In this document: piece by piece, positions 1 to 30,985 of the stretch
Layout of the letters: every line of letters starts with the position of its first letter
Numbering within the stretch: position 1 is the first letter of the stretch
Assembly: GCA_030651965.1 (NCBI GenBank)
Contig: JAUSBQ010000387.1
Span: 1-34,542, forward strand
Source: Pseudolabrys sp.
GTDB taxonomy: Bacteria > Pseudomonadota > Alphaproteobacteria > Rhizobiales > Xanthobacteraceae
Reading direction: 5' to 3'
Length of the DNA stretch: 34,542 bases
Translations under genes and position numbers: made by a program
The notes under the pieces: generated by a model
Seen by the model: the letters and a program-made list of their open reading frames with translations, nothing else
Database searches by the model: none
What the model was told of the DNA's origin: nothing

Positions 1-105
1 GTACAGCGGACACATCCGCCGCCGCGTCTTGTGACCCAAGCGATCCAGAAATGGTTCGAGCCAGCGTGCAAGCTCATCTTCCCACTTCGACGTCGTGTCT
101 ACCAT
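1..105 (-). mobile_element. IS701-family transposase, N-terminal fragment running off the window
   Basis: The minus strand from the ATG at 105 reads MVDTTSKWEDELARWLEPFL and continues DRLGHKTRRMCPLY to the window edge. The WEDEL-RWL-PFLDRLGHK-R--MCPLY pattern is typical of the N-terminus of IS701-type DDE transposases. A good ribosome site (GGAGGG, about 8 bases upstream) supports this start. Only 35 codons are in the window, so I cannot tell whether the gene is intact. It reads out of the window, so its upstream IS end should lie somewhere between 106 and about 250. Confidence 0.75.
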
Positions 106-569: not shown

Positions 570-1403
570 TCACGGCGTGACAATAGCGCGAGGCAATGAG
601 CCTGAACCGTCCTCCACGGGAGCGACAACTGGCTGCTCTTCAACTTCTCGGGCCGATGACTTCTTCCGACTCGCTGCTCTTTGGAGTCGCTTGACGTTCT
701 GAGCAGCCGCTTTTGCTTCCTCTCCGTCGATAAGGTCGCGCTTGATGATATCATTTACGAGCAATGAACGCAGATAGTCGATATCTACTTTGATGCCAGA
801 GCCGAGACGACGAATCTCTTTTCTGAGGTCGTCCAGCATGTCATCAGAAACCAACAACGCGGCCACGGTGAATTTGTTTGTGACCTGTTTTTGATGGAGC
901 AAGTCAGCCATCGTGCTCTTTGAAAAGCCCTCACGACTGAGGTTACCAAAGCACTCCAAGATTTCACCGCTTTTTGGGCTTGATGAAATGAGGTCAACTT
1001 CGCAGACTAAAATCTTTTCTATGGGCTGGCCAAAGTGAACCTTATAGACTCGCCACATCGCACCATTGGTGAGCACAACCCATTCGATTCCTTCGTTAGC
1101 GGCGTAATCAATAGCTTGCTTGACGTGAATATCTTTGAGTTCGATGCCGATAGCTTTGACCTCGATAAGATATCTTATCGTGTCGTCTACTCTTACGGCT
1201 AAGTCGACAAACGTCCCACGAATGGCATATTGGCTAGTTACCTCATGGTATTTGTCATATCCGCATGCATCGGCCAAAATATCATTGATGACGGTGACCG
1301 TGTCGGCCTCGCTGATGTCTTTCTTTTGTATCGCCGACAGGACGCCCTGATAGCGCTTTAGCTGTGTTGAAATGCGTGCCGATACTTTTGCCGATATGCC
1401 CAT
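570..1403 (-). CDS. PD-(D/E)xK nuclease with HsdR N-terminal-type domain (277 aa), probable defence cargo
   Basis: The protein resembles stand-alone proteins carrying the N-terminal nuclease domain of type I restriction R subunits (HSDR_N families). The nuclease core is visible at residues 60-100: TFVDLAV with Asp67, then YLIEVKA with Glu81 and Lys83, then KQAIDYA with Gln97 and Tyr100, the usual Q-xxx-Y element after the catalytic strand. The segment EWVVLTNGAMWRVYKV fits the next strand. No helicase motor follows, so it is not a full HsdR. The C-terminal 100 residues are charged, with a KRLQRAASRKKSS basic patch. I chose ATG at 1403, preceded by GGTGGGGG, over the 76-codon longer ORF because a promoter lies inside that extension. 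There are no methylase or specificity genes nearby. A role in degrading foreign DNA is inference; it could also be a regulatory or orphan nuclease. Confidence 0.75.
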   Translation of the reverse strand: MGISAKVSARISTQLKRYQGVLSAIQKKDISEADTVTVINDILADACGYDKYHEVTSQYAIRGTFVDLAVRVDDTIRYLIEVKAIGIELKDIHVKQAIDYAANEGIEWVVLTNGAMWRVYKVHFGQPIEKILVCEVDLISSSPKSGEILECFGNLSREGFSKSTMADLLHQKQVTNKFTVAALLVSDDMLDDLRKEIRRLGSGIKVDIDYLRSLLVNDIIKRDLIDGEEAKAAAQNVKRLQRAASRKKSSAREVEEQPVVAPVEDGSGSLPRAIVTP

Positions 1404-1445
1404 CGAGACCCCCACCAATTCCGAATACAAAGGCGCGCGCACGCC

Positions 1446-1582: not shown

Positions 1583-2149
1583 TCAATCCACTAAATGCAA
1601 CCCGCGCTTTTCGGCCAGCGCCGCAAGCCACGTCGATGGTCCCTTGGGCTTCTCATTGACGAGCGGCACTGGAGTGCCGACCGGCGCGCCGGGGTGTGCG
1701 ATGCTGTGGCCGCCTTCGACCTTGTCCCATGACGCGAGGCTCGTGCCGGTGTCGTCGAGTTGGACATAGCGATTGCAGACGACATGCTTTGGCAAAGCCT
1801 CGGGCCATCCGGCCGGATACGGATTCGCGTTGCCCTCAAGCGTGGCCTTGATGAATTTCGTCATGCCTTCCACGGCATCCCACGCTGCTTGCCGCGCAAG
1901 TTCAAGATACTCGGCGTCGTCGCCTTCACCCGAGGCAAGCGAAGCGGCTGACCGTTGCCGCTGTGTCGTCTCCGTCTCGATGGCGCGCGCGTGGCTGACC
2001 TCCTCGGGCGCATGTTCGGGGAGCGGCTCGTAAGTATTTCGAAGCCGCGTCCATTCCGACTCGGCGTAGTTGAGTTGCCGAATGAGCGATGCGTTTTCGC
2101 GTTCGAGCACTCGCACGCGGTCGCGCATTTCAAATGCTGCATTTCCCAT
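1583..2149 (-). CDS. Hypothetical phage-element protein with N-terminal coiled coil (188 aa)
   Basis: The start at ATG 2149 (MGNAAFEMRD) is chosen over the longer ORF because GGGAGGGAAG lies directly upstream and the preceding gene stops at 2151. Residues 8-40 (RVRVLERENASLIRQLNYAE) form a heptad-like coiled coil. The middle is acidic, and the C-terminal half is rich in Pro, Gly and Trp (ANPYPAGWPEALPKHVVCNR, GPSTWLAALAEKRG). It is the last gene of the minus-strand phage operon, one base after the 267-aa gene, so the two are probably made together. I do not recognise a family; no capsid, portal or tail motif is visible. Confidence 0.65.
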   Translation of the reverse strand: MGNAAFEMRDRVRVLERENASLIRQLNYAESEWTRLRNTYEPLPEHAPEEVSHARAIETETTQRQRSAASLASGEGDDAEYLELARQAAWDAVEGMTKFIKATLEGNANPYPAGWPEALPKHVVCNRYVQLDDTGTSLASWDKVEGGHSIAHPGAPVGTPVPLVNEKPKGPSTWLAALAEKRGLHLVD

Positions 2150-2150
2150 T

Positions 2151-2954
2151 TTACTTCCCTCCCGCTGCCAACGCGGCAATCTTCTTTGCGGCTTCGCCTT
2201 TGCCACTCTTCAACTGAGGCGGCTGTAGGTCAGCGTACTTGCTGACAAAGGCCCCACCCGCGCTCTCGACCTTGGACAGCACAGCGCGCACCGCGCCAAG
2301 CTGTTCGAACTCCCCCTTGGTCGCGGGGAAATACTGAGCGGCGAAGATTCGCAACTCGGCGTGCTGCTTGCGGTCGAAGCCCGAGACGAAGGGCGAGGCG
2401 TCGAGGATGGCCGCGACCGTTTCGAGGTCGCCGTCCATGACGGCCCTATGGAAGAAGTCCGTTCGGTCGCCGGGTTTCATCGATTTGACGTGCTCACGGA
2501 TTTCGCTCGCAACCTGCGAGACCGACGTCTTGTCGGCGTTCGGGTTGACGAGCTTGGCCGCAATCGACTTCTCGATGTCAGCAACGCTTGCCTCGATTGC
2601 CTTGCGCTGACGGTCAACGACTTCGCCGGCACGCCCGAAGGAGCGGGACATTGCTTCGCGGAGCGATTCCTCTTGGCCGTTGACTTGATAATTCCCGGCC
2701 GGCTCGCCATTGCGGGAATTCAGATGCACGACTTCGCCGGTCGGGGTTGCGGTGCTCGTGACGTATTTCTTGACGTCAGTCATGTCGCCGAGCGCGTCGT
2801 GCATCGTCCGCATCGCCACCTCTGCCGCACCGAATGCACGGGAGCCGGGTGTGCCCGGTTTATCGAGAACAGAGCGGTGCGGCAGCAGCATCATCGGCGA
2901 TACTGCCAGCGGCAGGTCGGCGCGGATGGTCGGCTTTTCATTTTCATTTGGCAT
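2151..2954 (-). CDS. Hypothetical phage-element protein (267 aa)
   Basis: The start at ATG 2954 (MPNENEKPTI) has GGAGACC about 8 bases upstream; the longer ORF start overlaps the terminase end and lacks a site. The N-terminal 80 residues are low in structure. Residues about 110-180 are predicted helical and charged (SLREAMSRSFGRAGEVVDRQ), followed by a segment reading FFHRAVMDGDLETVAAILDA that resembles an ankyrin-like helix pair. The C-terminus is Lys/Ala/Gly rich. It sits directly after TerL, where a tailed phage would usually carry its portal gene, but it is far too short and shows no portal features. Function unknown. Confidence 0.65.
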   Translation of the reverse strand: MPNENEKPTIRADLPLAVSPMMLLPHRSVLDKPGTPGSRAFGAAEVAMRTMHDALGDMTDVKKYVTSTATPTGEVVHLNSRNGEPAGNYQVNGQEESLREAMSRSFGRAGEVVDRQRKAIEASVADIEKSIAAKLVNPNADKTSVSQVASEIREHVKSMKPGDRTDFFHRAVMDGDLETVAAILDASPFVSGFDRKQHAELRIFAAQYFPATKGEFEQLGAVRAVLSKVESAGGAFVSKYADLQPPQLKSGKGEAAKKIAALAAGGK

Positions 2955-2986
2955 TTTCGGTCTCCAGTTCTGGTTCGAGTTGAGTC

Positions 2987-4372
2987 TTATTCCCCGGCTT
3001 TTCGGGAGTATCGCCAAACCGCAGGCGGTGTGTTGCAGAAGTATCGAAGCGCATCGCAGGAATGGTCGTTTGCCCCGGAGTCCAAATCATCCGGCTTGCG
3101 CGGGTCGCGGATGATGAACGGTGCGGTCTGCCAGAAGTGGCTGCAGCGCGCCGAAAGCATGAGCCCCGGTTTGCCGGTCTTGTCGCGCGTGGCGATGAGG
3201 CGGTTGCGAATCGCGGCCCATCCTTGGATGCGGCCCTTGGCCGGCTTTGTCAGGTAGACATTTTCCGTCCTGAAATAATTCAGGAGCGTGTCCTCATTGC
3301 CCGAGAGGCCGACCGCATCGTCGCCGACCCCGTTTGCTGCCATATTGTAGCGGGCGCAAATCTCTCGAATCGATTCCGCGACCTTGCTCGGCGGCCAGCC
3401 GAGTCCGGCGCTGATGTCATCGGGACGATGCGTGGACAATTCGTCAAATATGATGAGCGTCCCTTTCGGGCCGACGCCTTTAATCGAATCCGAGAGATAG
3501 CCGCCGAACAATGTGACGCACGGTGCTGCCGTTCCCCAATCGAGCGCGAGTGACTTGGCGTAGAGTATGTCCGTGGAGAACGGCAACGCGCTCGGCAGCA
3601 TGTGAGTGGCCTCGCTCAAGCAGTCGGCGAAGAACGCGCCGCGTGCGATGTTCCATGAACCCGAGAGCCAAGCCTCGGCCAGCGCCTCGTCGCCGCTGCA
3701 CGACGCAAGAATTTTTGTTTTATAGTCGGCGTGATTCAGATACGGATTGTCCAAGTACGTGCCAGCGCAATGCACCCACGTCTCGCCTTCAACTACAAAG
3801 GGGTGCCACGCAGGCGCGGCCGAAATGTACTTCGATTGGAGCAGTTGATGCTGCGAACCCCCTGGGTTGGCGGTCATTATGGTGGCAAGCGGGATATCTG
3901 CTGGCGACCTCAGGTTCGATTTCAAAAGCTGAACCCACCGCATTTCGCGCAGCAGACCGGCTTCGTCGATGCAGAGCAGCGTGGTTTCGCGGCCCATGTA
4001 TTTGCTGACATCGCGATGCGATTCCAACTGACCAAATTCGACGGTGCCGCCGTCCGCGATGCGAACCATGTGCTCTTGCTTATTGAAGCGGGCCCGCCCT
4101 CCGGGAAATGCTTGGTCCAGAATCGTCACCATCAGTTCTTCGATGGCCTGAAGCCCTTTGTAGTTCTCGCGCAGAATTAGAACCTTCGCCGCCGTCCCGT
4201 ATTTCGTCAGGTGGCGCAAGATGCGCAGCGCCATCGCGTGCGTCTTGCCGGGACCGCGCCCGCCTTCGAGAAGCAGATTCCAGACCTCGGGAATTTTCAG
4301 AACGCGGCTCTGCCATTCTGTTGGCTGGATGCCGGCGTGAACCGGTGCCTTCATGGTGTCGGTCATAGTCAT
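2987..4372 (-). CDS. Terminase large subunit (461 aa)
   Basis: TerL is the ATP-driven motor and nuclease that packages phage DNA into procapsids. The ATPase half shows Walker A GGRGPGKTH (residues 37-45), Walker B LLCIDEAG (132-139) and a coupling-type IMTANPGG (about 165-172). The RNase H-like nuclease half keeps its acidic residues: LALDWG (Asp278), GVGDDAV (351-352) and GANDHSCDALRYF (436, 440). The family looks like the PBSX/Terminase_3-6 group, and the length is normal for it. The start at 4372 overlaps the TerS stop by four bases (ATGA); the longer ORF runs out of frame through TerS. All catalytic residues are present, so the protein looks functional although no capsid genes follow it. 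Confidence 0.88.
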   Translation of the reverse strand: MTMTDTMKAPVHAGIQPTEWQSRVLKIPEVWNLLLEGGRGPGKTHAMALRILRHLTKYGTAAKVLILRENYKGLQAIEELMVTILDQAFPGGRARFNKQEHMVRIADGGTVEFGQLESHRDVSKYMGRETTLLCIDEAGLLREMRWVQLLKSNLRSPADIPLATIMTANPGGSQHQLLQSKYISAAPAWHPFVVEGETWVHCAGTYLDNPYLNHADYKTKILASCSGDEALAEAWLSGSWNIARGAFFADCLSEATHMLPSALPFSTDILYAKSLALDWGTAAPCVTLFGGYLSDSIKGVGPKGTLIIFDELSTHRPDDISAGLGWPPSKVAESIREICARYNMAANGVGDDAVGLSGNEDTLLNYFRTENVYLTKPAKGRIQGWAAIRNRLIATRDKTGKPGLMLSARCSHFWQTAPFIIRDPRKPDDLDSGANDHSCDALRYFCNTPPAVWRYSRKAGE

Positions 4373-4905
4373 CGCGTGGTCCCTCCTGTGCCCGAGAGAG
4401 GGGCAAGCGCGACCGGCCGGGTGACCTTGGGGCGCTCGTTGATGACGCGCATGTACTGCTCGGGTGTGTACGAATCCGGCAGGACGATGGTGATGTTCGG
4501 TGCCGTGGTCGGCGGCGCGGCAGTCTCGGTGTACCCATGGCGCGTCTTGAGCAGGAAAAGCGCGGCGACGGCATAGCCTTTGCGCGCCGCCTGCTTCAAA
4601 ATGTCGACAAGCTCCATCTCCTCCAGAGCAGCGCCGTGCTCCCACGCAACGCGGCACCGCTCATCGCGTTGGAAGAGCTTCTGCAACGTGGCCTTGGTAA
4701 GGCCCATCTCGGCGGCGATGAGATTCTGACTCGCGCCATCGCTGGCACGGCGCTTGATGAACTCTAAACCGGTGTCGGTTATGCTGACGGTGCCGAGCTT
4801 ATCGTCGGCGCGCGTGATGTACGGCGGCATAGGCATGGCGACCGATGCGATGAATGATGCCGTCTCGTCGTCGGCCGGCGCGGGAGTTTGTTTCGGCTTC
4901 TTCAT
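4369..4905 (-). CDS. Probable terminase small subunit (178 aa)
   Basis: TerS recognises the packaging site and hands DNA to TerL. Residues about 45-80 form a helix-turn-helix (FIKRRASDGASQNLIAAEMG, then LTKATLQKLFQRDERCRVAW) like those of small terminases. The following segment, AWEHGAALEEMELVDILKQAARKG, resembles the oligomerisation helices. The position immediately before TerL with an ATGA overlap is the normal one. It also overlaps the upstream 78-aa ORF by four bases. In phage satellites an altered TerS redirects helper packaging; here TerL is carried too. Confidence 0.75.
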   Translation of the reverse strand: MKKPKQTPAPADDETASFIASVAMPMPPYITRADDKLGTVSITDTGLEFIKRRASDGASQNLIAAEMGLTKATLQKLFQRDERCRVAWEHGAALEEMELVDILKQAARKGYAVAALFLLKTRHGYTETAAPPTTAPNITIVLPDSYTPEQYMRVINERPKVTRPVALAPLSGTGGTTR

Positions 4906-5138
4906 TCGCCCCTCCCAGCCTGATTCAAAAATTCGGCGCGTTCTCGACGCTCGCGTTCGCGCAACTCCTCGGGCGTCAATTTGATGGTGACCGGAGCCGG
5001 GCCTTCGGGAAGCGTGAGCGCGGCGGCAACCTTCGCAAGGTGCGCGAGCGACTCGGCGGTCGGCGCGGGTCGAGGCGTCTCGGGTTGCGCAGCGACGGCA
5101 CGTTGTGCGGCGATGAATGCGGCGGTCTTATCGGTCAT
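4902..5138 (-). CDS. Small hypothetical phage-element protein (78 aa)
   Basis: The sequence begins MTDKTAAFIAAQRAVAAQPE and ends with a charged helix (KLTPEELRERERRERAEFLN). Both ends overlap neighbours by four bases (ATGA), a strong sign of translational coupling and of a real gene. Its Ala/Pro-rich middle suggests a linker between two helices. I recognise no family. The position next to terS suggests an accessory or regulatory role in packaging, which is inference only. Confidence 0.6.
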   Translation of the reverse strand: MTDKTAAFIAAQRAVAAQPETPRPAPTAESLAHLAKVAAALTLPEGPAPVTIKLTPEELRERERRERAEFLNQAGRGE

Positions 5139-5308
5139 GATGTGGTCTCCTTGGGCTTGTGCGCGGTGTCGTCCTTACCTACGGCGTTCCACTCCGCCTC
5201 TTGCATGGCGAGCAATGCGCGCCGCGCGGCGCGGGCCTGCCTTGCGTGGATTTGGCGGCACTCGTGCGCAGGGTCATGTGCGATGCCGGAGCGATAGCGG
5301 TCGGTCAT
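5135..5308 (-). CDS. Small basic hypothetical protein (57 aa)
   Basis: It begins MTDRYRSGIAHDPAHECRQI and is rich in Arg, His and Ala, with one central helix (RQARAARRALLAMQEAEW). The start at 5308 overlaps the preceding stop by four bases (ATGA), and its own stop overlaps the next start the same way. The longer ORF in this frame is a shadow running through the non-coding repeat region. A nucleic-acid-binding role is possible from composition but not shown. Confidence 0.55.
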   Translation of the reverse strand: MTDRYRSGIAHDPAHECRQIHARQARAARRALLAMQEAEWNAVGKDDTAHKPKETTS

Positions 5309-5646
5309 GGCTTGGCCCTCCGTTGGGGCGCGCCAGTGCGGCGCGTATCGTCGTATGTTCCGAACTCGCCGCGTGCGGCCTTGGCCCGAAAGTGTGAGTC
5401 GATGGTCGCGCCGGCCTCGATGCGCTGGTGAGCCGTGGTGAAACCCAAGGGCTCGCCCCGGCCAATCACATTGGCATCGCGCGTCATCGGGTTGCGCGCG
5501 CCGCTGTTCACCTTGGCGGCCGGCCAAGGCGCGGCCGGCGGACTCAGCGGTGCCCTGTGCGACGGCGCGGCCGGACGGCCGATGGCGCGCGGCGGTGGAT
5601 TCATCGCGCCAATGAGGGCTGAGAACGGGCGAGTCGGTGCGTTCAT
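5305..5646 (-). CDS. Hypothetical phage-element protein (113 aa)
   Basis: The start at ATG 5646 (MNAPTRPFSALIG) has GGGAGGCC directly upstream, a clear ribosome site, so I reject the longer ORF start at 5928. The N-terminal half is a Pro/Ala-rich disordered tail. The C-terminal half (RNPMTRDANVIGRGEPLGFT, then ERIEAG-type sequence with SHFRAKAARGEFGTYDD) looks folded and carries a conserved-looking GRGEPLGF segment. It is the first gene after the origin-like repeats and heads the small-protein/terminase operon. No family recognised. Confidence 0.6.
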   Translation of the reverse strand: MNAPTRPFSALIGAMNPPPRAIGRPAAPSHRAPLSPPAAPWPAAKVNSGARNPMTRDANVIGRGEPLGFTTAHQRIEAGATIDSHFRAKAARGEFGTYDDTRRTGAPQRRAKP

Positions 5647-6054
5647 GGCTGGCCTCCCTGTGCGATGGCCCGAGAAGCCGTGCAGGCGGTGCCGATAGGG
5701 GCGAGAAAGGCGGCCGATTTGCACGAACGCCGTGCGTTCCCCCTGCAATTGCTGGAAGTCGGTGCAAGAAGTGGCCGCCGTTGGCGCAGAACTTCGTTTC
5801 GACCCGCTGTCCGTGTGGCAGTCGGCGGCCTTTTTGGCGCGGCCGGGACGCGGTTGGCGGGCGAAAACCCGAGAAGCCGGGAGTCCTGAGTCCCGTGGAG
5901 TCCAATGGACTCCGCATCGTGCTCCCACCCCATCCGAAGGGAGGCTGGTTTCGACTCGACGTTGAGACCAGAGGAAGATGCTGAGTCCATTGGACTCGGT
6001 TGGACTCGGGACTCGGCTTCCTTGCTTTTCGGGTTAAAAATCAATGGTGCCTCC
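5647..6054. other. 408-bp non-coding stretch between helicase and small-protein operon
   Basis: No ORF here has a ribosome site or sensible protein. The stretch holds the mirrored GAGTC/GACTC array described separately (5879-6015), an AT-rich patch next to it (GGTTAAAAATCAATGG at about 6031-6046), and short hairpin-forming sequence (GCACG-AACGC-CGTGC). The region must also carry the promoter for the gene starting at 5646, though I do not see convincing hexamers. Confidence 0.6.
5879..6015. repeat. Mirrored GAGTC/GACTC array, candidate replication origin of the element
   Basis: GAGTC or GACTC occurs at 5881, 5888, 5898, 5908, then 5983, 5993, 6003 and 6010, with an extra GACTC at 5953. Spacings are 7-10-10 in the left cluster and 10-10-7 in the right cluster, and orientations are mirrored. 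The two clusters therefore form a long imperfect inverted repeat of about 37 bp (shared core GAGTCCATTGGACTC) separated by about 66 bases. An AT-rich patch follows at about 6031-6046. P4-type helicase/primase proteins bind iterons at their own origin, and this array lies immediately downstream of such a gene, so an origin is the best reading. An operator array for the adjacent operon is the alternative. Confidence 0.6.
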
Positions 6055-7563
6055 TCAAAATGGGATTTCAGGGGCGTCGACCGGAGGCGCGCGCTCCTCG
6101 GGCAACGGCAATCGGATTCCCAAGAGTCCCCGAGGCCGTTGTGAATCGATTGCCGCCGCAATGCGGTGGCGTTTGACAGTCGGCGATGCGGCCAGCACGG
6201 CCTCGCACAATTCGGTCTTGATGTCGGGACGCGCTCCGTTGCTGGCGCACCATTGCTGGTAAGCGACATATAGGGCGGTCTCGGTGATGAACGCTTTCGC
6301 ATCCAGCACGCAGCACTCTTCAACGAATGTTGCGGTCGGTGATGCGGCGCGCTGGAAGCTCTCCTTGGCAGCGTCACTGGATTCAGTCTCAGTGAATTTG
6401 CCATTCGCTTTAAGGCGGTCGTATCCCTCCAATGCCCAATTCAGAATTCCCGGCAGTTCGGTCCTTAGTTTGTCCGTGAGCGCCTTGTCCTCGCGACCAA
6501 CGAAAGTATTCGTCATGCGAAGCACAACTAGGCGAGCGCTGAACGCGGAAGAGTCGTCAGCGAAATTCGGGATTTTGTTTACCAGCAGGAGAAAACGAGT
6601 GAGCAGCTTCCCGACCCAAGAGACTCTATTTTTGCGGTCGACTTGTACGTTGTCTTCGCCGCTGATGGCTTTGAGGTGACCAGTGACGGTTACCTTGTCA
6701 ATCTTGGGGCCTATCGCAGCCTCCGAGATGATGGCCGCAGTCTTGGCAATAAGCGGTTGCCGACCGAATGGCTCCTGCGCGAGCGCCTGCAGCGAAGATG
6801 CTGCGACGTTCAATTCGCCGAGCAGCATGGTGATGACGCGGGCGATTGTGCCTTTGCCGCTGCGTCCCGGCCCGAGAAGGACGAAAATCTTCTGCAACGA
6901 AGTATCGGGAAGCAGCAGGTATCCCATAATCTCCTGCAGCAAAAACACTTCGCCGGCCGTAGTGCTATCGAGATTCGATGGCCAGTATTGTTCGAGCGTG
7001 TTGAGCCAAAGTGGACATGCGGCATCCGGGTCGTAGTCAAAATTCAGTGCGTTCCGCGTAAAGAAATTTGGCGTTGGCTCAGCGCATTTTCGAGTCGGGA
7101 CATGCAGAATGCAGTTCTGCAAGCTGATGCATTCCAATGGCGAAGGATTGCCGGCGTCATTCAGCCAGCATGGCGGAGCCATCTCGTCGCGCGCGGTGTA
7201 ACTCTCGCATTTGAGCGCGTGAAAGAGCGCCGACCACTGCTTGGGCTCCGCGTCATAGGGCCGTTCGACCCACGCGCCTCCGTCTTCGCCTTGCACCCTA
7301 ACCACTGCCCAATTGAAGAACGAGACGATGTCAGACATCACCGCGAGGTCTTCAAGCTCGTGATAGGCACCCTTGCGGTAGTCGAGGAAGTCGCCATTCC
7401 AATGCAGCAGCGTGGGACGCTTGCACTGGCGGAACTTCTCGGCAGTCGTAACCCAGTCCTTCCGCTGGAGAACGACAGGGAGCCGGAAGTCGCGAGGTGG
7501 CGCGGCTAGCTGCTCTATGCTCTCGGGTTCGGGCCGGGTCACCGGGCGCGTGACTTTGTTCAT
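6055..7563 (-). CDS. Phage/plasmid D5-P4-type SF3 helicase, primase-associated (502 aa)
   Basis: The protein belongs to the family annotated as phage/plasmid primase P4 C-terminal or D5-like helicase, which unwinds the origin and drives replication of phages, satellites and plasmids. The D5_N-type region is about residues 150-225 (LWLNTLEQYW, FLLQEIMGYLL). Walker A is GPGRSGKGT (231-239), Walker B lies around AAIISEAAIG (276-285), and the SF3 sensor and arginine region is FLLLVNKIPNF--DSSAFSARLVVLRM (324-350). No zinc finger, TOPRIM or archaeo-eukaryotic primase motif is visible in the short N-terminus, so primase activity is doubtful; P4 alpha itself is much longer. The start overlaps the upstream stop by four bases (ATGA). 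The GAGTC/GACTC array follows its stop. Confidence 0.85.
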   Translation of the reverse strand: MNKVTRPVTRPEPESIEQLAAPPRDFRLPVVLQRKDWVTTAEKFRQCKRPTLLHWNGDFLDYRKGAYHELEDLAVMSDIVSFFNWAVVRVQGEDGGAWVERPYDAEPKQWSALFHALKCESYTARDEMAPPCWLNDAGNPSPLECISLQNCILHVPTRKCAEPTPNFFTRNALNFDYDPDAACPLWLNTLEQYWPSNLDSTTAGEVFLLQEIMGYLLLPDTSLQKIFVLLGPGRSGKGTIARVITMLLGELNVAASSLQALAQEPFGRQPLIAKTAAIISEAAIGPKIDKVTVTGHLKAISGEDNVQVDRKNRVSWVGKLLTRFLLLVNKIPNFADDSSAFSARLVVLRMTNTFVGREDKALTDKLRTELPGILNWALEGYDRLKANGKFTETESSDAAKESFQRAASPTATFVEECCVLDAKAFITETALYVAYQQWCASNGARPDIKTELCEAVLAASPTVKRHRIAAAIDSQRPRGLLGIRLPLPEERAPPVDAPEIPF

Positions 7564-7991
7564 GGCCGCTCCTGCAATTTGCCGGTGGCGTCGACCACGC
7601 CGCTACGCATTCCGTAGGACTCACCCGCGAGAGGGCTTGGCATCGCAACGCTGAATCCGGTCGTTTCACCGAAGAAGCAGCCAAGCCAAGCGATGTCATC
7701 GGCGTCGTCTGCGGTATCAAACGTTCCCGACCCGACAACTCTGTTGTCGGCGTCGATAAGTGTATAGGTGTACGGCGGAGCAATTCCGGCGGCGCGGTTG
7801 GCCTCAAGAATTTTCGCTGTCTTGTCGCGCACCATCCAGTAGTAGTCGCGGCGTCGTTCGGCGACCGGCATTCCGTTTGGAATGAGAAAGACGTTTTCCG
7901 TGTCATCGCGCTCGTACCAAGTGAGCATGCGAAGTTTCCACAGCTTGCCAGCGCCGAAGCCCGGCGGCGTTGCGACCGTGGGTGCGCTCAA
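7560..7991 (-). CDS. Hypothetical phage-element protein (about 143 aa)
   Basis: The ORF extends to an ATG at 8039, but that start lies deep inside the upstream gene. A TTG at 7991 overlaps the upstream stop as TTGA, matching the four-base overlaps used throughout this operon, so I prefer it; an internal ATG at 7928 (MLTWYERDD) is a second option. The protein contains LWKLRMLTWYERDDTENVFL and APPYTYTLIDADNRVVGSGT, suggesting a beta-rich fold in which a DADNRVVGSG turn is prominent. No catalytic motif is recognised. Its position between the Xis-like gene and the helicase suggests a replication or regulatory accessory. Confidence 0.55.
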   Translation of the reverse strand: MSAPTVATPPGFGAGKLWKLRMLTWYERDDTENVFLIPNGMPVAERRRDYYWMVRDKTAKILEANRAAGIAPPYTYTLIDADNRVVGSGTFDTADDADDIAWLGCFFGETTGFSVAMPSPLAGESYGMRSGVVDATGKLQERP

Positions 7992-8305
7992 GATTGCACC
8001 GACTTCACAAAGGCGTTTACGCCGCCATTGCGAATCCATGTGTCGAGCGCGTCACGGTGGAAGCGGCGACCGTTTCCGACCTTCACCGACTCCGGCGCGG
8101 TCTTTTCTGAAACGTACCGTGCGAGCGTCTGCTCGCTGATGCAGATGTAGTTCGCCGCCTGTTGAGCGGTAAACCAAACCTTTGGCGCGAGGAAACCGCC
8201 AGCGATAAGGGCGGCAACAGCAGCCTCACCACCGGCAATGCCCGCCTGGCGGAAGCCATCGGCGAAAAAGTCTTCGTTGGTTTTGAGTTCGGGAATCGAC
8301 GACAT
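7988..8305 (-). CDS. Helix-turn-helix protein, Xis/AlpA-like (105 aa)
   Basis: Residues about 43-95 form a MerR/HTH_17-type winged helix: WFTAQQAANYICISEQTLAR, then YVSEKTAPESVKVGNGRRFHRDALDTWI. This domain is shared by excisionases, AlpA-type activators and many phage regulators. The start at 8305 has GGGAGGTC directly upstream; the longer ORF start is rejected. It is the first gene of the minus-strand operon leading to the helicase, so it likely controls excision and/or early expression, as AlpA-like proteins do in satellites. Which of these it does cannot be decided from sequence. Confidence 0.75.
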   Translation of the reverse strand: MSSIPELKTNEDFFADGFRQAGIAGGEAAVAALIAGGFLAPKVWFTAQQAANYICISEQTLARYVSEKTAPESVKVGNGRRFHRDALDTWIRNGGVNAFVKSVQS

Positions 8306-8592
8306 AGCGGACCTCCCGCCCCGTAGGGCTTTGGGCTCGCCAGCGATACGAGGCTGCAGCGTGCGCCTCTTCCCCATCCTGCCGAGCCGGTGTCCGAAGA
8401 ATCCGGTTTAAGGTAGGGGCCGCTTATCAATCCGCACGGCGCTCGTCGCTGCCGTGAGGTGGCATTATTAAAGGCGTCGTACTCAATCTCAGGGTTTGCA
8501 GTCAAGTCGCCGGTTCGTGTTAACCCTTGACCCGCTGAATTGCGGGTTTTGCGTCAATCCTTCTGCAACGTTTTTCGTTGCACAATTCGGTC
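8306..8592. promoter_or_regulatory. Divergent control region of the element with two dyads
   Basis: This region separates the leftward operon (start 8305) from the rightward wHTH gene (start 8593). Near the wHTH gene are CCCGC-TGAATT-GCGGG followed by TTTT (8531-8550), a terminator-like hairpin, and TGCAACG-TTTTT-CGTTGCA (8564-8582), a perfect 7-bp dyad typical of an operator. On the minus strand TTTAATAATG (about 8464-8473) could hold a -10 element, but no well-spaced -35 is seen. The arrangement resembles a lysis-lysogeny-type switch between two DNA-binding proteins. Confidence 0.5.
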
Positions 8593-8883
8593 ATGGGTAG
8601 GGTCCAATCCGCCATATTGCGCTGCCTCCGCGACGGCGTGGCGCTGACGACCCGAGAATTGACGGTCGGCGCATTCAATACTTGGACTCCGTCAGGCGCG
8701 TCCGCTGTGCGCCGCGCGTTGGCCACTCTCAAGGCCGACAAGCTGGCATCCTGCACGGCACGGCGCTGGCGACTTCACAAGGCGCTTGGTCAAACGAAGC
8801 GGCGCAAACCGAAAAAATCGAAGCAGTGGACAGCGAGGCAGGGCCGCGACGAATTGGCCGGGCAGGAGGAATTGCCGCTCTAA
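8593..8883 (+). CDS. Small basic winged-helix-like protein (96 aa)
   Basis: The sequence MGRVQSAILRCLRDGVALTT, RELTVGAFNTWTPSGASAVR and RALATLKADKLASC fits a compact winged helix, in which a helical reading unit is followed by an effector-like wing. The C-terminus is very basic (QTKRRKPKKSKQW). It is the only element gene on the plus strand, faces the integrase gene and overlaps its stop by about four bases. No ribosome site precedes the ATG at 8593; a TTG at 8578 is possible, and it would overlap the dyad at 8564-8582. It is a candidate repressor of the leftward operon, by position only. Confidence 0.6.
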   Translation: MGRVQSAILRCLRDGVALTTRELTVGAFNTWTPSGASAVRRALATLKADKLASCTARRWRLHKALGQTKRRKPKKSKQWTARQGRDELAGQEELPL

Positions 8884-10034
8884 CCCTTCATTAGTTGCAT
8901 CATGCGCGCACTGATTTTTCGCTGCGCAGCCCGCAACGACGAACCGACCAGCAGCGCCCGCGTGATGTAGCCTTGGCTGACACCGACCAGCGAATGCCCG
9001 AGGAGCAAGCGGATATCCAGTTCATTGACGCCGATTTGCGCGGCGACCGTGCGATAGGTGTGCCGCCCGGCGTTGCCGCTGTGCGTGAGTTTGCGGTGCC
9101 TCTCGTGCGTTTCAATGAGGTGGCCGTCCTTGCCGGGACCGGGAAAGACCCATTCGTTGCTGCGTGCCTCGAACGCGATGCGGCCGGCGGCGCGCGCGAG
9201 CTTTAGCTGTCGAACGATTGGCAGGCTCATCGGAATCTCAATATCAATGCCGGTCTTGGTCTTGCCAATTACGACCTTGCGTTTGGCGCAATCGACACCG
9301 TCCCAACGCAAGCGGGCAAGCTCTCCGGGCCGCATGCCAGTCAGCACGCAAAGCCGATGGTAGGCCGCACGCAAAGCGTCTTTCTCTTCGATGGCATCGA
9401 CCTGCGCTGCCCATGCTGGAAACTCGGCGAATGGAATTGCGCGGTTCGCGCGCTCTTGCTTGTTCCACTGAACGCCGGTCGCCGGGTGCATAGCTGGCAG
9501 TGAACGGTTGAATTTCTGCGCATGGCGATAGGTTGCCCGAAGGAGGCGAGCCGCATTGTTCGCCTGTACAGGGCCGCGCTTTTTGGAAAGCGCGAGGTGC
9601 CAGTCGCGTACCTTCTCGGGTGAATTCGAAATATCCGCGAGCGACTGATGTTCCCATAGCCCGAGGCAACGCTTGAAGATGCCTTCGCAGTCCGCCAGCC
9701 AACGGGTCCGTAGCGTGGCTTTGTACGCTACGAACGCTTCCGCCAACGTGACGCCGCGCGGCGGGGTGATGACGAACTTGCCGACCGCCCGCTCACCGAT
9801 GATTTCGAGCACCCGAGCGCGCGCTTGGTCGGCCTTAACGTGCGGCCACTCACCGAGCTTGCGGCTGATTGTCTTGCGGTGGCCGTTTTCACGCCCCTCC
9901 GACTGGTACCGAAAGGTCTTCCGCTTCATGCCGACGCGAAGCATGAGACCGGGGGTTTTGGAATCCCGGTGGACAATGCCGGCGCTGGAAGTGGCGAACG
10001 GAATCCGCTTGATGGCCGTGTCGGTGAAAATCAT
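8880..10034 (-). CDS. int: Tyrosine-type site-specific integrase (384 aa)
   Basis: The protein integrates and excises the element at the tRNA-Arg(CCU) gene. The N-terminal arm-binding domain begins IKRIPFATSSAGIVHRDSKT, the DUF4102/P4-integrase-like layout. A SAM-like core-binding domain follows at about 115-200. The catalytic domain contains TGMRPGELARLRWDG (first Arg), KTKTGIDIEIPM (beta-hairpin Lys), GRHTYRT (His-x-x-Arg), LLGHSL (His) and QGYITR (Tyr). All catalytic residues are present. The start at 10034 has GGAGGGAC just upstream. The gene's 5' end faces the attachment site 198 bases away, the usual layout for tRNA-targeting elements. Confidence 0.92.
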   Translation of the reverse strand: MIFTDTAIKRIPFATSSAGIVHRDSKTPGLMLRVGMKRKTFRYQSEGRENGHRKTISRKLGEWPHVKADQARARVLEIIGERAVGKFVITPPRGVTLAEAFVAYKATLRTRWLADCEGIFKRCLGLWEHQSLADISNSPEKVRDWHLALSKKRGPVQANNAARLLRATYRHAQKFNRSLPAMHPATGVQWNKQERANRAIPFAEFPAWAAQVDAIEEKDALRAAYHRLCVLTGMRPGELARLRWDGVDCAKRKVVIGKTKTGIDIEIPMSLPIVRQLKLARAAGRIAFEARSNEWVFPGPGKDGHLIETHERHRKLTHSGNAGRHTYRTVAAQIGVNELDIRLLLGHSLVGVSQGYITRALLVGSSLRAAQRKISARMMQLMKG

Positions 10035-10104
10035 AGGTCCCTCCATTTCGCCGAGCAATTGCAGGGGTTTCTGCAGGGGGCTCGGGGGACGGGACGACTA
10101 GCTC

Positions 10105-10213
10105 GAACCAGTGGGTCGCAGGGGTAGAAACGACCTTCTTGGTGAACTTCGCCTGTAATGTGTGGCCTTTCGGAGCCTCCTCAGGGTAGGTTGATAACCA
10201 GCGAGAACCAGTG
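10105..10213. repeat. Candidate integrase arm-type repeats
   Basis: GAACCAGTG occurs at 10105-10113 and 10205-10213, exactly 100 bases apart and in the same orientation. A related AACCAG lies at 10196-10201. They lie between the integrase start and the tRNA core, where arm-type binding sites of tyrosine integrases are normally found. Only two full copies exist, so chance cannot be excluded. Confidence 0.4.
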
Positions 10214-10231
10214 ATAATTCGCTTGGCGAGA

Positions 10232-10276
10232 TTCCTAAACCGAAGGTCGGAGGTTCGACTCCTCTCGGGACCGCCA
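10232..10276 (+). other. Attachment site: 3' remnant of tRNA-Arg(CCU)
   Basis: The sequence can be numbered as a tRNA: U32 U33, anticodon CCT (34-36), A37, the 3' anticodon strand ACCGA, the variable loop, T-arm GGAGG-TTCGACT-CCTCT, acceptor 3' strand CGGGACC, discriminator G and encoded CCA ending at 10276. The matching 5' parts are missing: no GGTCCCG lies about 60 bases upstream, and the preceding bases cannot pair with the anticodon 3' strand. It is thus a duplicated 3' end left by integration, not a working tRNA. The intact gene should lie off the left edge of the window with the same 45 bases. Confidence 0.85.
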
Positions 10277-14961: not shown

Positions 14962-15930
14962 TCACATCAGTGCGGTCGGCGGCTTGCCGCGTGCTGGACT
15001 CTTGGTCGGCGCGGGCTCGGCTTCCTCGGGCTCGTCATGATCGGTCGGACGGCCTTCGCCGGCCAGAAGACGGCGCACGCACTCGGCCGCCGCCTGTCCC
15101 TTCAAGCTGCGGCCCCACATTTCCTTGATCGCATTCTCATGAAAAGCCAGTGCATCCGGTGCAGAGGTGATCATCGCGACGCCGACGCGGACATTAGGCT
15201 CGCCGCCGAGCCGGAACGGACTCAAGACTAGAATATTGCGGTCCGGCTGGCGGAAAATCTGGAAGCCGGCATGCGGCAGGGTGTCGGTCACGATGCCGAT
15301 CTGGACGCCCATCGGCGGATCCTCGATCAGCGCCATGAAATGTTCGATTTCGGCCCGCGCCAGAGCCTTGCGCTTGACCAGCAGGTCCTGCGGCAACCCT
15401 TCGCGCCCAATCAGACCGTGATGAAGAAACCGTTCAATTTCCAGGGCCGACATCAGGTTGACGATGGTCGGCCGGCGGCGGCGGTAAATCTCTTTGCGCT
15501 CGCGCAGGATCGCCATGATCTTGGGAATGTCGCTGAGCGCCTTGGTCCTGTTGGCCACGTTCTTGGTGACGTTTTCGGTCAGAACCTCTTCCAGAGTCGT
15601 GTCGAAACGATCGGAGGCGAGCAGGAACGAGATCGGCCCCGAGAGCAGCATGATGTGCTCGGCCGATCCTTCAATCTGCCGCATGCGCTCGAAATAGGTC
15701 ACGGCCGACGGGATGTATTCGATCCCGACCCCGAGTAGCGACGGGATCGAGACCCCGAGCAGCTCGGCCAGCCGCTCCAAAGTTTCGATCTTGGCCAGTT
15801 CGCCTTTTTCGAACCGATACAGCGCGGTGCGCGAAATCCCGAGTTGCTTGGCGATCTCGTCGGCACTCAGCGCCGAGCCGAGGCGATAGGCCTTCAGGCG
15901 GTTGCCGATTTCGTCGTAACGGAAAGCCAT
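14962..15930 (-). CDS. XRE-family transcriptional regulator with large C-terminal domain (322 aa)
   Basis: Residues about 8-62 are a Cro/C1 helix-turn-helix (IGNRLKAYRLGSALSADEIA, KQLGISRTALYRFEKGELAK). The remaining 250 residues form a probable effector domain (VTYFERMRQIEGSAEHIMLL, MGVQIGIVTDTLPHAGFQIF, WGRSLKGQAAAECVRRLLAG). I see no shikimate-kinase-like P-loop, so it is not a BzdR/BoxR type. The C-terminal tail is disordered (EEAEPAPTKSPARG). Start ATG 15930 has GGAGC six bases upstream; the longer ORF is a shadow. It is embedded in the catabolic operon and probably controls it, with the dyad at 16970-16987 as a candidate operator. Confidence 0.82.
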   Translation of the reverse strand: MAFRYDEIGNRLKAYRLGSALSADEIAKQLGISRTALYRFEKGELAKIETLERLAELLGVSIPSLLGVGIEYIPSAVTYFERMRQIEGSAEHIMLLSGPISFLLASDRFDTTLEEVLTENVTKNVANRTKALSDIPKIMAILRERKEIYRRRRPTIVNLMSALEIERFLHHGLIGREGLPQDLLVKRKALARAEIEHFMALIEDPPMGVQIGIVTDTLPHAGFQIFRQPDRNILVLSPFRLGGEPNVRVGVAMITSAPDALAFHENAIKEMWGRSLKGQAAAECVRRLLAGEGRPTDHDEPEEAEPAPTKSPARGKPPTALM

Positions 15931-18593: not shown

Positions 18594-20931
18594 GACAGCA
18601 GACCGCTGGATCGGTGCTTCGGTCACGCGGCTCGAAGATCTCCCGCTGGTAACGGGACGCGGGCGCTTCGCCGGCGACATCGATTTTCCCCATCAACTGC
18701 ATATGCGGATCGTGCGCTCGCCTTACGCGCACGGCCGGTTGAAATCGGTGGATGCGGCGGCTGCTTTGGCCATGAATGGCGTGGCGGCGGTGTGGACCGC
18801 AAAAGATATAGCCGATCTGCCGCCGATTGAATTCCGCGAAGGACCGAACGAAAACCTGTCGCCTTACCGGCAGGCTGTGCTGGCGGCTGAATGGGTTCGC
18901 TATGTCGGCGAACCGGTGGCGGCGGTTTTTGCCGAGGATGCCTATGTGGCGGAAGACGCGGCGGAGTGCGTTTTCGTCAACATTGATGAATTGGAGCCTG
19001 TCCTCGACGCGGCTGCTGCGCCGACCGAACTTCGGCCCGGCCTCGGCACTGAATCGACGGTTTGCCGACAGGGTTATGGCAACGTTGACACCGCCTTTCG
19101 CGACGCTCACACGATCGTCGAACTTGATGTGTCTATTGGACGGCACTCTGCCGTGCCGTTGGAAACGCGCGGCGCCATTGGCCGCTACGATGCGGCGCGC
19201 GATGTCCTTGAACTGCATGGCGCGGCCAAAGTGCCGCATCGGAACCGGGAGTCGCTGGCGCGCATGTTGGGGCGCAGCACCGGTGGCGTTCACCTGTACG
19301 AAGGCCATGTAGGCGGCGGGTTTGGCGTCCGTGGCGAAATCTATCCAGAGGATGTCTTGGTGTTAGTCGCTGCGTTGCGGCTCGGGCGTCCGGTGAAATG
19401 GCTGGAAGATCGCCGCGAGCACATGATAGCGGCCAATCAGTCGCGGCAGCAGCGGCATCGCATACGCGCCGCCATCGATGGCGACGGCCGGCTCATGGCG
19501 ATTGACGATGATTTCTTTCACGATCAAGGCGCGTATCTGCGTACCCATGGCGCGCGAGTCGTCGATACCACCTGCGGCATCCTGCCGGGTCCCTACCGTC
19601 TGCCGCATTACCGCGTGGCGGGTCATGTACGCATGACCAACAAGACGCCGTGCGCGACTTACCGTTCGCCGGGGCGCTTTGAAAGCAATTTCGCGCGCGA
19701 ACGGCTCATGGATGCCATTGCCGATAAGCTTGGTTTGTCGCGCATTGAGGTGCGTCGCCGCAATTTGATCGCCGCGAGCGAAATGCCGTTCGAACGTCCG
19801 TTGGTCGCGCTGGGCGACGACGTCGTCTATGACTCCGGTCGATATGAAGCGTTGCTCGACAAGGCGCTGGCGCATATCGGTTGGGATGCCCTGCAGCGTG
19901 ACGTCGCATCCCGCCGCGCTGCCGGCGAATATGTCGGTCTCGGCGTCGCCATCTATGTCGAAAAAAGCGGCCTTGGGCCGACAGACGGCGCGCGGATTAA
20001 CATCCATACCAGCGGTGAGATCGAAGTCATCACCGGCGGTGCGTCGATCGGGCAGGGCTTCGAGACCGTGGTGGCGCAGGTTTGCGCCGAGATGCTGGGG
20101 AGCGATTATCGTCAGGTGCGGGTGGTGCACGGCAGGACCGATCGCATCGAATACGGCATCGGCGCGCATGCGACCCGTGCGACCGTCATGACGGCGAACG
20201 CGGCCGCCGTGGCGGCGAAAAAGGTTCGCGACAAGGCGCTCGATATGGCCGCCCAGTTATTGCAGGCCGATGCCGCCGATCTCGATATCGTCGGCGGATG
20301 CGTGGTCCGCACCGGCATGATTGGCGGCCCCGCCATCAGTCTGGGAGATATTGCGCACCACCTTCGGCCAACCTCGTCGACGCGCGGGGAACGCGATCCT
20401 GGCCTGTCGGCGGAAGGCTGGTTCAGCACGAGCCATATGACTTATCCCTATGGCGTGCAGATTGCGGTGGCCAAGATCGACAAGGGCACCGGCGCGGTGC
20501 GGATCGAAAAACTTCTGATTGCTTACGATATCGGCCGCGCCATCAATCCGATGTTGGTCGAGGGCCAATTGGTCGGCGGTTTCGCTCAGGGGCTCGGCGG
20601 CAGCTTACTTGAGGAGTTTCGCTACGATGAGCGCGGCCAGCCTTTGTCGGTGACCTTCGCGGACTATCTGTTGCCGACAGCGCAAGACGTGCCATTCGTG
20701 GACATCCTGCTGACGGAAGATGCGCCGAGTGGCGTTAATCCGCTCGGCATCAAGGGCGCTGGCGAAGGCGGAATTGCCGCGGCTGGCGCGGTGATCGCTT
20801 CGGCCGTGGACGATGCACTCGGTGCATCTGGCACAATTTCCCATCTTCCCATCATGCCGCAGCAGTTGAAGATGATGATCGACGCGTTTGAGGCGACGGG
20901 TGCTGCGGCCGCCTCGTCCGGCAGCGGTTGA
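18586..20931 (+). CDS. Molybdopterin-binding (large) subunit of molybdo-hydroxylase (781 aa)
   Basis: This is the catalytic subunit of the complete M-S-L enzyme. Landmarks in order are ASVTRLEDLPLVTGRGRFAG, YVGEPVAAVFAEDAYVAEDA, GHVGGGFGVRGEIYPEDVLV, VKWLEDRREHMIAANQSRQQ, active-site loop CATYRSPGRFESNF, IGQGFET, and GIKGAGEGGIAAAG with the catalytic Glu. The loop sequence TYRSPGR is unlike CO dehydrogenase and unlike the GAGQ loop of the 12572-14950 protein, so the two probably act on different substrates. A decayed close relative lies at 29191-30985. The C-terminus ends in a disordered Ala/Ser/Gly tail. Likely substrate: an N-heterocyclic acid, from context. Confidence 0.92.
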   Translation: MTETADRWIGASVTRLEDLPLVTGRGRFAGDIDFPHQLHMRIVRSPYAHGRLKSVDAAAALAMNGVAAVWTAKDIADLPPIEFREGPNENLSPYRQAVLAAEWVRYVGEPVAAVFAEDAYVAEDAAECVFVNIDELEPVLDAAAAPTELRPGLGTESTVCRQGYGNVDTAFRDAHTIVELDVSIGRHSAVPLETRGAIGRYDAARDVLELHGAAKVPHRNRESLARMLGRSTGGVHLYEGHVGGGFGVRGEIYPEDVLVLVAALRLGRPVKWLEDRREHMIAANQSRQQRHRIRAAIDGDGRLMAIDDDFFHDQGAYLRTHGARVVDTTCGILPGPYRLPHYRVAGHVRMTNKTPCATYRSPGRFESNFARERLMDAIADKLGLSRIEVRRRNLIAASEMPFERPLVALGDDVVYDSGRYEALLDKALAHIGWDALQRDVASRRAAGEYVGLGVAIYVEKSGLGPTDGARINIHTSGEIEVITGGASIGQGFETVVAQVCAEMLGSDYRQVRVVHGRTDRIEYGIGAHATRATVMTANAAAVAAKKVRDKALDMAAQLLQADAADLDIVGGCVVRTGMIGGPAISLGDIAHHLRPTSSTRGERDPGLSAEGWFSTSHMTYPYGVQIAVAKIDKGTGAVRIEKLLIAYDIGRAINPMLVEGQLVGGFAQGLGGSLLEEFRYDERGQPLSVTFADYLLPTAQDVPFVDILLTEDAPSGVNPLGIKGAGEGGIAAAGAVIASAVDDALGASGTISHLPIMPQQLKMMIDAFEATGAAAASSGSG

Positions 20932-29190: not shown

Positions 29191-30985
29191 TCGAGCCTTA
29201 CGACGGTCACCCTCGCCGCGGATGGTGTCGCGGGCGAATTCGCGGCGGGGTACGGCACTGAAGCGACGGTCTTAAGCAAGGGCTACGGCGATGTCGAAAC
29301 GGCATTTCGCGCCGCGCATGCCGTTGTAGAGCTCAAACTCACGATCGGGCGCCACTCCGGGGTGCCGTTCGAAAAGCGCGGGGCGATCGCGCGCTACGAT
29401 GCAGCGCGCGACGCGCTCGAACTGCACGGCGCCGCGAAAATTCCGTATCGGAATCGGGACCTGCTCGCCAGTTGGCTCGGCCGTAATCCGATCTCGATCC
29501 GAGGATTTGCTGGTTTGCGTCGCCGCGCTTCGGTTCTGCCGCCCCGTCAAATGGATCGAGGACCGGCGCGAGCATTTGATAGCGACCAATCATTCCCGTC
29601 AGCGGCATCATCATGTGCGCGCCGCGATCGATGCCCATGGTCACGTGCTGGCCATTGATGAGGGTTGTCGGTATGACGGCCGGCAGGCTGCCCGGACCTT
29701 ATCGTATCCCCGCAGATCGGGCTGTCGGCCATTTGCGTCTCACCAACAAAACGCCAGCCGCGGCCTACCGTTCGCCCGGCCGTTACGAAAGCACTTTCGT
29801 CCGCGAGCGGCTCTTCGATGCCATCGCCGCGAAGCTCGGTATCGATCGTATCGAATTGCGCCGCCGCAATCTCATTGCAAAAACCGAGATGCCTTTCGCC
29901 CGACAAATGGAAGTCCTCGGTGAGCAAGCCTATGATTCAGGCAAGTACGAGGGGCTGCTCGACAAGGCGCTTGCGGTCTTCGATTAGGATAGTTTGCAGG
30001 TGGAACTGAAGCGGCGCCGGATGGCTGGCGAGTTGGTTGGCGCCGGCGTCAGCATCTCGACCGAGGAAAGCCGCTTTGGTCCCGCCGATGGCGTGAAGGT
30101 CGCGGTCGATACCACGGGCGCGGTCGAAGTCGTCACCGGCTCGGCCTCTGCCGGCTAGGGCGTCGAGACAGTGATGCTTCCCGTGCGACCGTCATGACTG
30201 GTTCCGCCACGCGTATCGCCGCGGGCGAACCGCGCGCCAAGGCGCTCGAAGTCGCGGCCGACTAATGCAAGCGCCCGCCGACAGGCTCGAGATTATCGAC
30301 GGGAAGATTCTTCGCAAGGACCTCCGTCGGGGCCCTCCATGAGTTCGGCGAAATTTCAGGTCATCTCGCGCCAACCTCGAAAACCCTTGGCGATCGCGAG
30401 CCGGGACTCTCCGCCTTTGGCTGGTTCCGGACCGAATACATGAACTATGCCTACAGCGTTCATATGGCCGTGCTGAAAGTGGATAGCGAGATCGGCGCGG
30501 TGGCGGTCGAGCGCTATCTTGTCGCGTTCGACGTGGGGCGCGCTGTCAATCCAAGACCGATCAAGGGCCAGATTGTCCGCGGCTTTGCCCAAGGCCTCGG
30601 CGGCGCATTGATGGAAGAATTTCTCTATGACGCTCACGGCGAGCTCCTATCGGTCACTTTTGCCGATTTCCTGATGCCGACGGCATCCGATGTGCCGACC
30701 ATCGATGTCCTGATCACGGAAGATGCGCCGAGCCCGTGCAACCCGCTCGGCATCAAGGGCGCCGGTGAGGCCAGCATCACCGGCGTTGGCGCGGCCATTG
30801 CCTCGGCGATCGACGATGCCATCAGCGAGCCGGGCGCCGTCATGCAGCTCCCGGTCACGCGAAAACGGCTGAAGAAGTTTTTCGCTGCTGATTCCCAGGA
30901 GCGTTTGGCGTCCGTGACGCTTCTGAATGGTCCCGACGAGCGCCGCTTGTCCCAAAAAGTTGACAGTGTGCCGATAGCAACATAA
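29191..30985 (+). pseudogene. Decayed molybdopterin-binding subunit, paralogue of the 18586-20931 gene
   Basis: Translation in several frames gives successive blocks matching the intact paralogue. They are GYGTEATVLSKGYGDVETAF; RGAIARYDAARDALELHGAA; then in another frame EDLLVCVAALRFCRPVKWIE; then AAAYRSPGRYESTFVRERLF; then VNPRPIKGQIVRGFAQGLGG and GIKGAGEASITGVG. The first ~140 codons are absent. About 20 codons including the GGGFG motif are deleted before the first frame change. In-frame TAG codons stand at 29985-29987 (where the paralogue has Trp) and 30156-30158 (where it has Gln of GQG). More deletions lie between 30159 and 30440. The last 180 codons are open. This is an old duplication now lost. 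Confidence 0.9.

Follow-up and report, generated by a model that had tools for sequence, protein, structure and literature searches.

The window, a 34,542-nucleotide stretch of Pseudolabrys sp. DNA that forms one complete contig (C358) of a 468-contig draft genome, carries near its left end a compact gene set on the minus strand. Reading inward from the right border, 45 bp of the 3' part of a tRNA-Arg(CCT) gene (attR; 10232–10276, plus strand), with the same sequence as in the intact copy on contig C123, precede a tyrosine integrase gene (8880–10058; PF00589 (Phage_integrase), E 3e-11; PF13356; phrog_1, 2e-33) and a gene for an AlpA/Xis-like HTH_17 regulator (7988–8377; PF12728, 1e-8; phrog_66, excisionase and regulator, 3e-7). 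Between these two genes lies a 101-aa open reading frame on the plus strand, opposite to the operon (8578–8883). A 159-aa protein that matches no Pfam or PHROG family (7560–8039) is followed by an SF3 helicase of the D5/DUF5906 type (6055–7563; DUF5906, 3e-13; D5_N; Pox_D5; PHROG primase, 7e-62), which in relatives is fused to an N-terminal primase-like part. Beyond a gap that contains a probable replication origin, three small operon proteins of 113 aa (5305–5646; ATG at 5646 with a ribosome-binding-like GGGAGG upstream, a longer frame also being in the ORF list), 57 aa (5135–5308) and 78 aa (4902–5138) lead into the small terminase TerS (4369–4905) and the 461-aa large terminase TerL (2987–4372; Terminase_3, 2e-7; phrog_2, 3e-22). 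Downstream of TerL are a conserved protein predicted to be all-helical, here called g288 (2151–2954), and a 207-aa protein with no Pfam or PHROG match (1583–2206).

Five ATGA overlaps, read directly from the window sequence, join consecutive genes: one between the 159-aa protein and the helicase (7560/7563), one at either end of the 57-aa gene (5305/5308 and 5135/5138), one between the 78-aa gene and TerS (4902/4905) and one between TerS and TerL (4369/4372). The integrase, Xis-like protein, helicase, TerS and TerL of the original prediction were all recovered on the minus strand by Pfam, PHROG and ORF analysis, as was the operon with four-base overlaps. Its claim that capsid genes are missing also agrees with our Pfam and PHROG scan of the window, in which the element showed no portal or capsid gene and no tail gene.

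The extent first given for the element, 1583–10276, held at its right end, the tRNA-Arg remnant, and had to be revised at its left, where the element continues past 1583 toward the window's edge. An HSDR_N-like protein with the N-terminal fold of restriction-enzyme R subunits (570–1409, minus strand, start codon uncertain; PF13588, E 8e-7) is probable cargo; it had no match in a PADLOC scan. At the edge itself lie the first 35 codons of a transposase gene (1–105, minus strand), which we take to be IS701-like; a 445-aa transposase ORF with a near-identical beginning is present on contig C78.

The left border and the tRNA-Arg(CCT) target

The assembly probably breaks at position 1 because this transposase has a copy on contig C78, and since the contig ends inside the transposase, the attL of the element lies off the contig. 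The intact tRNA-Arg and the 45-bp repeat had been expected to the left of the element. An intact tRNA-Arg(CCT) gene does exist, as one copy in the draft genome, but on contig C123. Joining the element to that gene was considered and rejected, the draft having a single tRNA 5' half, and a tblastn search of the C123 stretch with the element's proteins found nothing. Remnants of the tRNA 3' part occur on contigs C58, C339 and C186 as well as in the window, indicating that this gene is a repeated integration target. On C58, a Wadjet JetABCD defence operon adjoins the remnant (L007:10193–17278). Separately, short exact direct repeats about 10 kb apart in the chromosomal right flank of the window (20174–20759 and 30180–30762) suggest duplicated (paralogous) genes.

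By analogy, the element should end within about 2.5 kb past the contig edge, the insertion sequence not counted, which would leave too little room for a head-and-tail module. A search of the whole draft genome for PF04860 (portal), PF05065 (HK97 capsid) and PF03354 gave no match; PF03354 missed the window TerL because it matches other TerL families.

Relatives share the gene plan, and seven have defined ends

TerL searches recovered nine further loci (L057/L020, L058, L059, L060, L061, the second element on the same contig (L021), L062, L063 and L092) with an integrase, a primase-helicase, TerS and TerL, followed in eight of the nine by a g288 homologue. Every part of this plan was located in each locus apart from the primase of L061, the TerS of L059 and L060, the g288 of L092 and the individual integrase assignments for L060 and L062; the Pfam scan gave two further integrase matches. 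A TerS candidate in L060 (4022–4513) was dropped for poor alignment. Both ends could be defined in seven of the nine, six by direct repeats of tRNA genes enclosing 9.8–12.7 kb and one by a split tRNA-Arg. The repeats measure 46 bp at tRNA-Lys in L057 (9.8 kb), 49 bp at tRNA-Lys in L060 (10.2 kb), 47 bp at tRNA-Gly in L062 (10.9 kb) and 56 bp at tRNA-Thr in L063 (10.4 kb); two elements on one Hyphomicrobium contig use halves of the same tRNA-Pro(GGG) gene, with repeats of 53 and 43 bp and lengths of 11.7 and 12.7 kb. The gene order thus recurs elsewhere with defined att borders, as the original prediction had proposed to establish.

Several of these loci have features of their own. On the Hyphomicrobium contig (L021/L055/L056, 13464–37951), two different terminase-bearing elements stand head to tail in the one tRNA-Pro(GGG). 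L059 (5383–15663; RFJA01000102.1) interrupts the host's tRNA-Arg(CCT) gene at the anticodon loop; when the flanks of the element are joined across a 10-bp core, ARAGORN recognises an intact tRNA-Arg. This element also has its own complete tRNA-Arg(CCT) (15330–15406), apparently a substitute for the split host gene, and a type VI retron reverse transcriptase adjoins it. L060 (JAAYDF010000213.1) is a closed family member in a contig binned as Phycisphaerae, which reflects either a host range across phyla or a misbinned contig.

The family is sparsely distributed in the genomes searched: TerL of the satellite group was found in 3 of 398 order-level genomes and a strong g288 match in 3 of 385 class-level genomes, the window's own genome being counted in both. 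Two scans of viral contigs yielded no close relative of the element, in the second case among the matches listed. A plasmid search returned one TerS-like/TerL pair, from Skermanella. On this Skermanella mucosa plasmid (L094:8348–10374), an HGGxSTG protein gene precedes the terminase gene among IS elements, with no portal gene after it; the pair is possibly a relic of a related element.

No structural gene family was found in closed relatives

In an ordinary prophage, genes for portal, capsid and tail should appear ahead of the intact tRNA, and the relatives with two known ends allow this to be checked. No structural family was found in any of the seven. Across 107 further ORFs from the relatives and from a related element that has no TerL (L082, described below), none of the Pfam matches at E<=1e-4 was to a portal, capsid or tail family; all 14 families detected were regulatory, recombination, ATPase, unknown-function or defence families. 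Structural PHROG families were likewise absent from the best 25 of the 49 matched by the relatives' ORFs. The prophage loci with a related TerL (L022–L024) have a portal-sized gene of about 600 aa directly after TerL.

Cargo in the relatives includes an XamI restriction-modification pair, a pPIWI-associated nuclease, a type VI retron reverse transcriptase and a GIY-YIG nuclease, and is mostly anti-phage defence. Features by which phage satellites are recognised are found here: site-specific, att-bounded integration, a size far below that of a phage and no full virion gene set.

The terminase appears to be maintained

The window TerL keeps its Walker A (GGRGPGKT) and Walker B (CIDE) motifs and the acidic nuclease residues D278, D351/D352 and D440, motif invariance having been scored across the first four satellite TerLs aligned. 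Its dN/dS, about 0.3 in the pairs tested and rough given high synonymous change, indicates that TerL is maintained under purifying selection. Maximum-likelihood analysis of 31 TerLs places the ten element TerLs in one group (support 100/100) on a long branch and leaves 20 phage and prophage TerLs outside it; the phage rows were chosen by similarity searches, and a wider sample could alter the grouping. The Skermanella plasmid TerL falls on the phage side. Taken alone, the window TerS is weakly defined (an HTH only; phrog_3064 at 0.07). It is assigned by its position 5' of TerL and by alignment with the proteins encoded just 5' of TerL in relatives; four of these proteins match phrog_309 (terminase small subunit). 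Judged from sequence, TerL and TerS look as expected of a motor still in working order.

A conserved protein follows TerL

g288 has no Pfam or PHROG match and no convincing PDB match, and a tblastn search with one homologue against 50,697 phage records (E 0.01) gave no match. Its AlphaFold2 model is all-helical (mean pLDDT 79) and retrieved nothing at E<=0.001 in Foldseek searches of the PDB and viral models; the highest-ranked hits (TM < 0.4, E > 0.05) were unspecific proteins with long helices and were discarded. Assignment as capsid, portal or scaffold by homology was therefore dropped for want of PHROG, PDB or Foldseek support, and by its model g288 is not visibly a capsid or portal protein. 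Its dN/dS is about 0.6–0.8 in the pairs tested, again a rough value with high synonymous change; such fast evolution might fit a protein that faces a variable partner. As a speculation, g288 could serve as an adaptor at the portal, as a scaffold or in interference.

L082 (7624–15978), a closed element of 8.3 kb in a single-contig genome, sits at tRNA-Lys. It encodes a homologue of g288 together with an AAA_25 ATPase and a small DUF5681-like protein, but a TerL match was not found in it; elements with g288 therefore do not always have TerL. L082 may be a variant that depends on the TerL of its helper. Matches to g288 in L083 and L080 were weak, and L083 showed no core gene.

A probable replication origin follows the helicase gene

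The gap after the helicase gene holds eight copies of GAGTCC/GGACTC within 134 bp (5881–6014, no strand assigned), arranged as two mirrored groups of four with spacings of 7-10-9 and 9-10-7. In 200 dinucleotide shuffles of the element, no 6-mer reached eight copies per 140 bp. The corresponding gap holds different repeats in six relatives (L058, L059, L063, L062, L057 and L021), for example GGACCGATC in L058 and CCCGACTT in L059, these motifs having been picked by eye and the shuffle tests on them being post hoc; in L060 and L092 no clear repeats stand out at this position. By analogy, the repeats resemble the iteron origins of replicons that encode their own initiator, and the window repeats are likely to be a replication origin. 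The satellites P4 and SaPI replicate autonomously with such initiator proteins of their own (PMC7145576).

Interpretation and alternatives

We consider it probable that these elements form a family of self-replicating satellites whose own complete terminase fills helper procapsids with satellite DNA. The anatomy of the element, the borders of its relatives and the conservation of its genes are the observations on which this reading builds; excision, replication, packaging and use of a helper are the steps that we infer from them. Counting against this reading are the viral-contig scans, which gave no close relative among the matches listed, the position of the left end beyond the contig, the g288-bearing L082 with no TerL match, and the small chance that an orphan ORF encodes a capsid or portal that escaped recognition. 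The anatomy of the locus shows the element seated in tRNA-Arg(CCT), placed there by its tyrosine integrase. A helper signal, probably acting through the AlpA-like protein, would trigger excision, and the SF3 helicase would drive replication from the iterons at 5881–6014. TerS would then select satellite DNA, and TerL would dock on the portal of helper procapsids and fill them, the helper providing capsid, portal, tail and lysis. More speculatively, g288 would probably fit the foreign motor to the helper head or block the helper's own motor. A stronger version, in which these satellites replace the helper's entire terminase and g288 serves as an adaptor for the portals of unrelated helpers, is put forward only tentatively and has somewhat less than an even chance of being right.

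The main rival, which we regard as improbable, also describes a satellite or mobile island, with TerL and TerS acting in interference, as a portal decoy or nuclease, while the helper's motor does the packaging. Satellites commonly disturb helper packaging, and L082 pairs g288 with a DUF5681-like protein in an element without TerL, both of which fit such a role. However, ATPase and nuclease motifs are both kept in the window TerL, and TerS is co-conserved directly 5' of TerL, as expected of a working motor.

Decay is a still poorer fit. Under this explanation the locus is a degraded prophage from which the head and tail genes have disappeared, with TerS and TerL as leftovers, consistent with the relationship of the window TerL to tailed-phage TerLs (phrog_2) and with the several orphan att remnants and the edge insertion sequence in this genome. 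The closed relatives already contradict it: nine divergent loci repeat the plan, their frames are intact, their att sites clean and their sizes confined to a narrow range, and TerL forms its own clade under purifying selection. We find it highly unlikely. Least credible of all is a minimal virus or capsid-forming satellite whose shell protein (g288 or another orphan ORF) escaped recognition, for although g288 is conserved, belongs to no known family and occupies the usual portal/capsid place after TerL, its all-helical model matched no capsid or portal fold in Foldseek at E<=0.001, and ten kb with replication genes and cargo leave little room for a tail.

Comparison with known satellites

The proposed satellite family resembles the PICIs (SaPI-type phage-inducible chromosomal islands), with which it shares an integrase, an Xis/AlpA-like regulator, its own replication genes with a nearby origin (probable here), att-bounded ends and a size of about 10–15 kb; many PICIs also have TerS. 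PICIs depend on the TerL of the helper, to which they add a TerS or Rpp of their own (PMC10690885). They carry TerS at most, whereas an intact TerL is present in the window and nine relatives, followed by the conserved g288 in the window and eight of them. The cfPICI (capsid-forming PICI) and Mulch/Flayer satellites do carry both TerS and TerL, but together with portal and capsid (PMC10690885); portal, capsid and head Pfam families are absent from the window and from the 107 ORFs of relatives.

The PICMIs of the Vibrionaceae are modelled on an integrase, AlpA (PF05930/PF12728) and a DUF5906 primase, and no terS or other known packaging-redirection gene has been identified in them (PMC10803314). 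Counterparts of all three model genes occur in the window, and a defence cargo hot spot is shared. In contrast, PICMIs require Fis, which is not among the Pfam matches of the window and relatives (PF02954), and the window family has TerS-TerL. P4 relies on the terminase of its helper, acting at cos sites, and on Sid/Psu. P4-like elements share an integrase and a D5-type primase-helicase with the window family, which shows no P4-specific Pfam family (Psu/Sid) at E<=1e-4, distant versions being possible. Ordinary prophages differ in having portal, capsid and tail genes rather than g288 after TerL, and the closed relatives are without structural families.

The sections of a review of mobilizable elements covered here name no class that has TerS and TerL yet lacks a shell (PMC11389934). 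We have not found such a family described in the part of the literature that we covered, and an earlier description may exist. Among known satellites, some turn the packaging motor of the helper to their own use and others encode a motor along with a shell; a conserved family with a complete motor and no shell falls between the two. The family makes it testable whether a foreign TerL works on another phage's portal, and the satellite TerL clade and g288 provide search profiles for alphaproteobacterial satellites.
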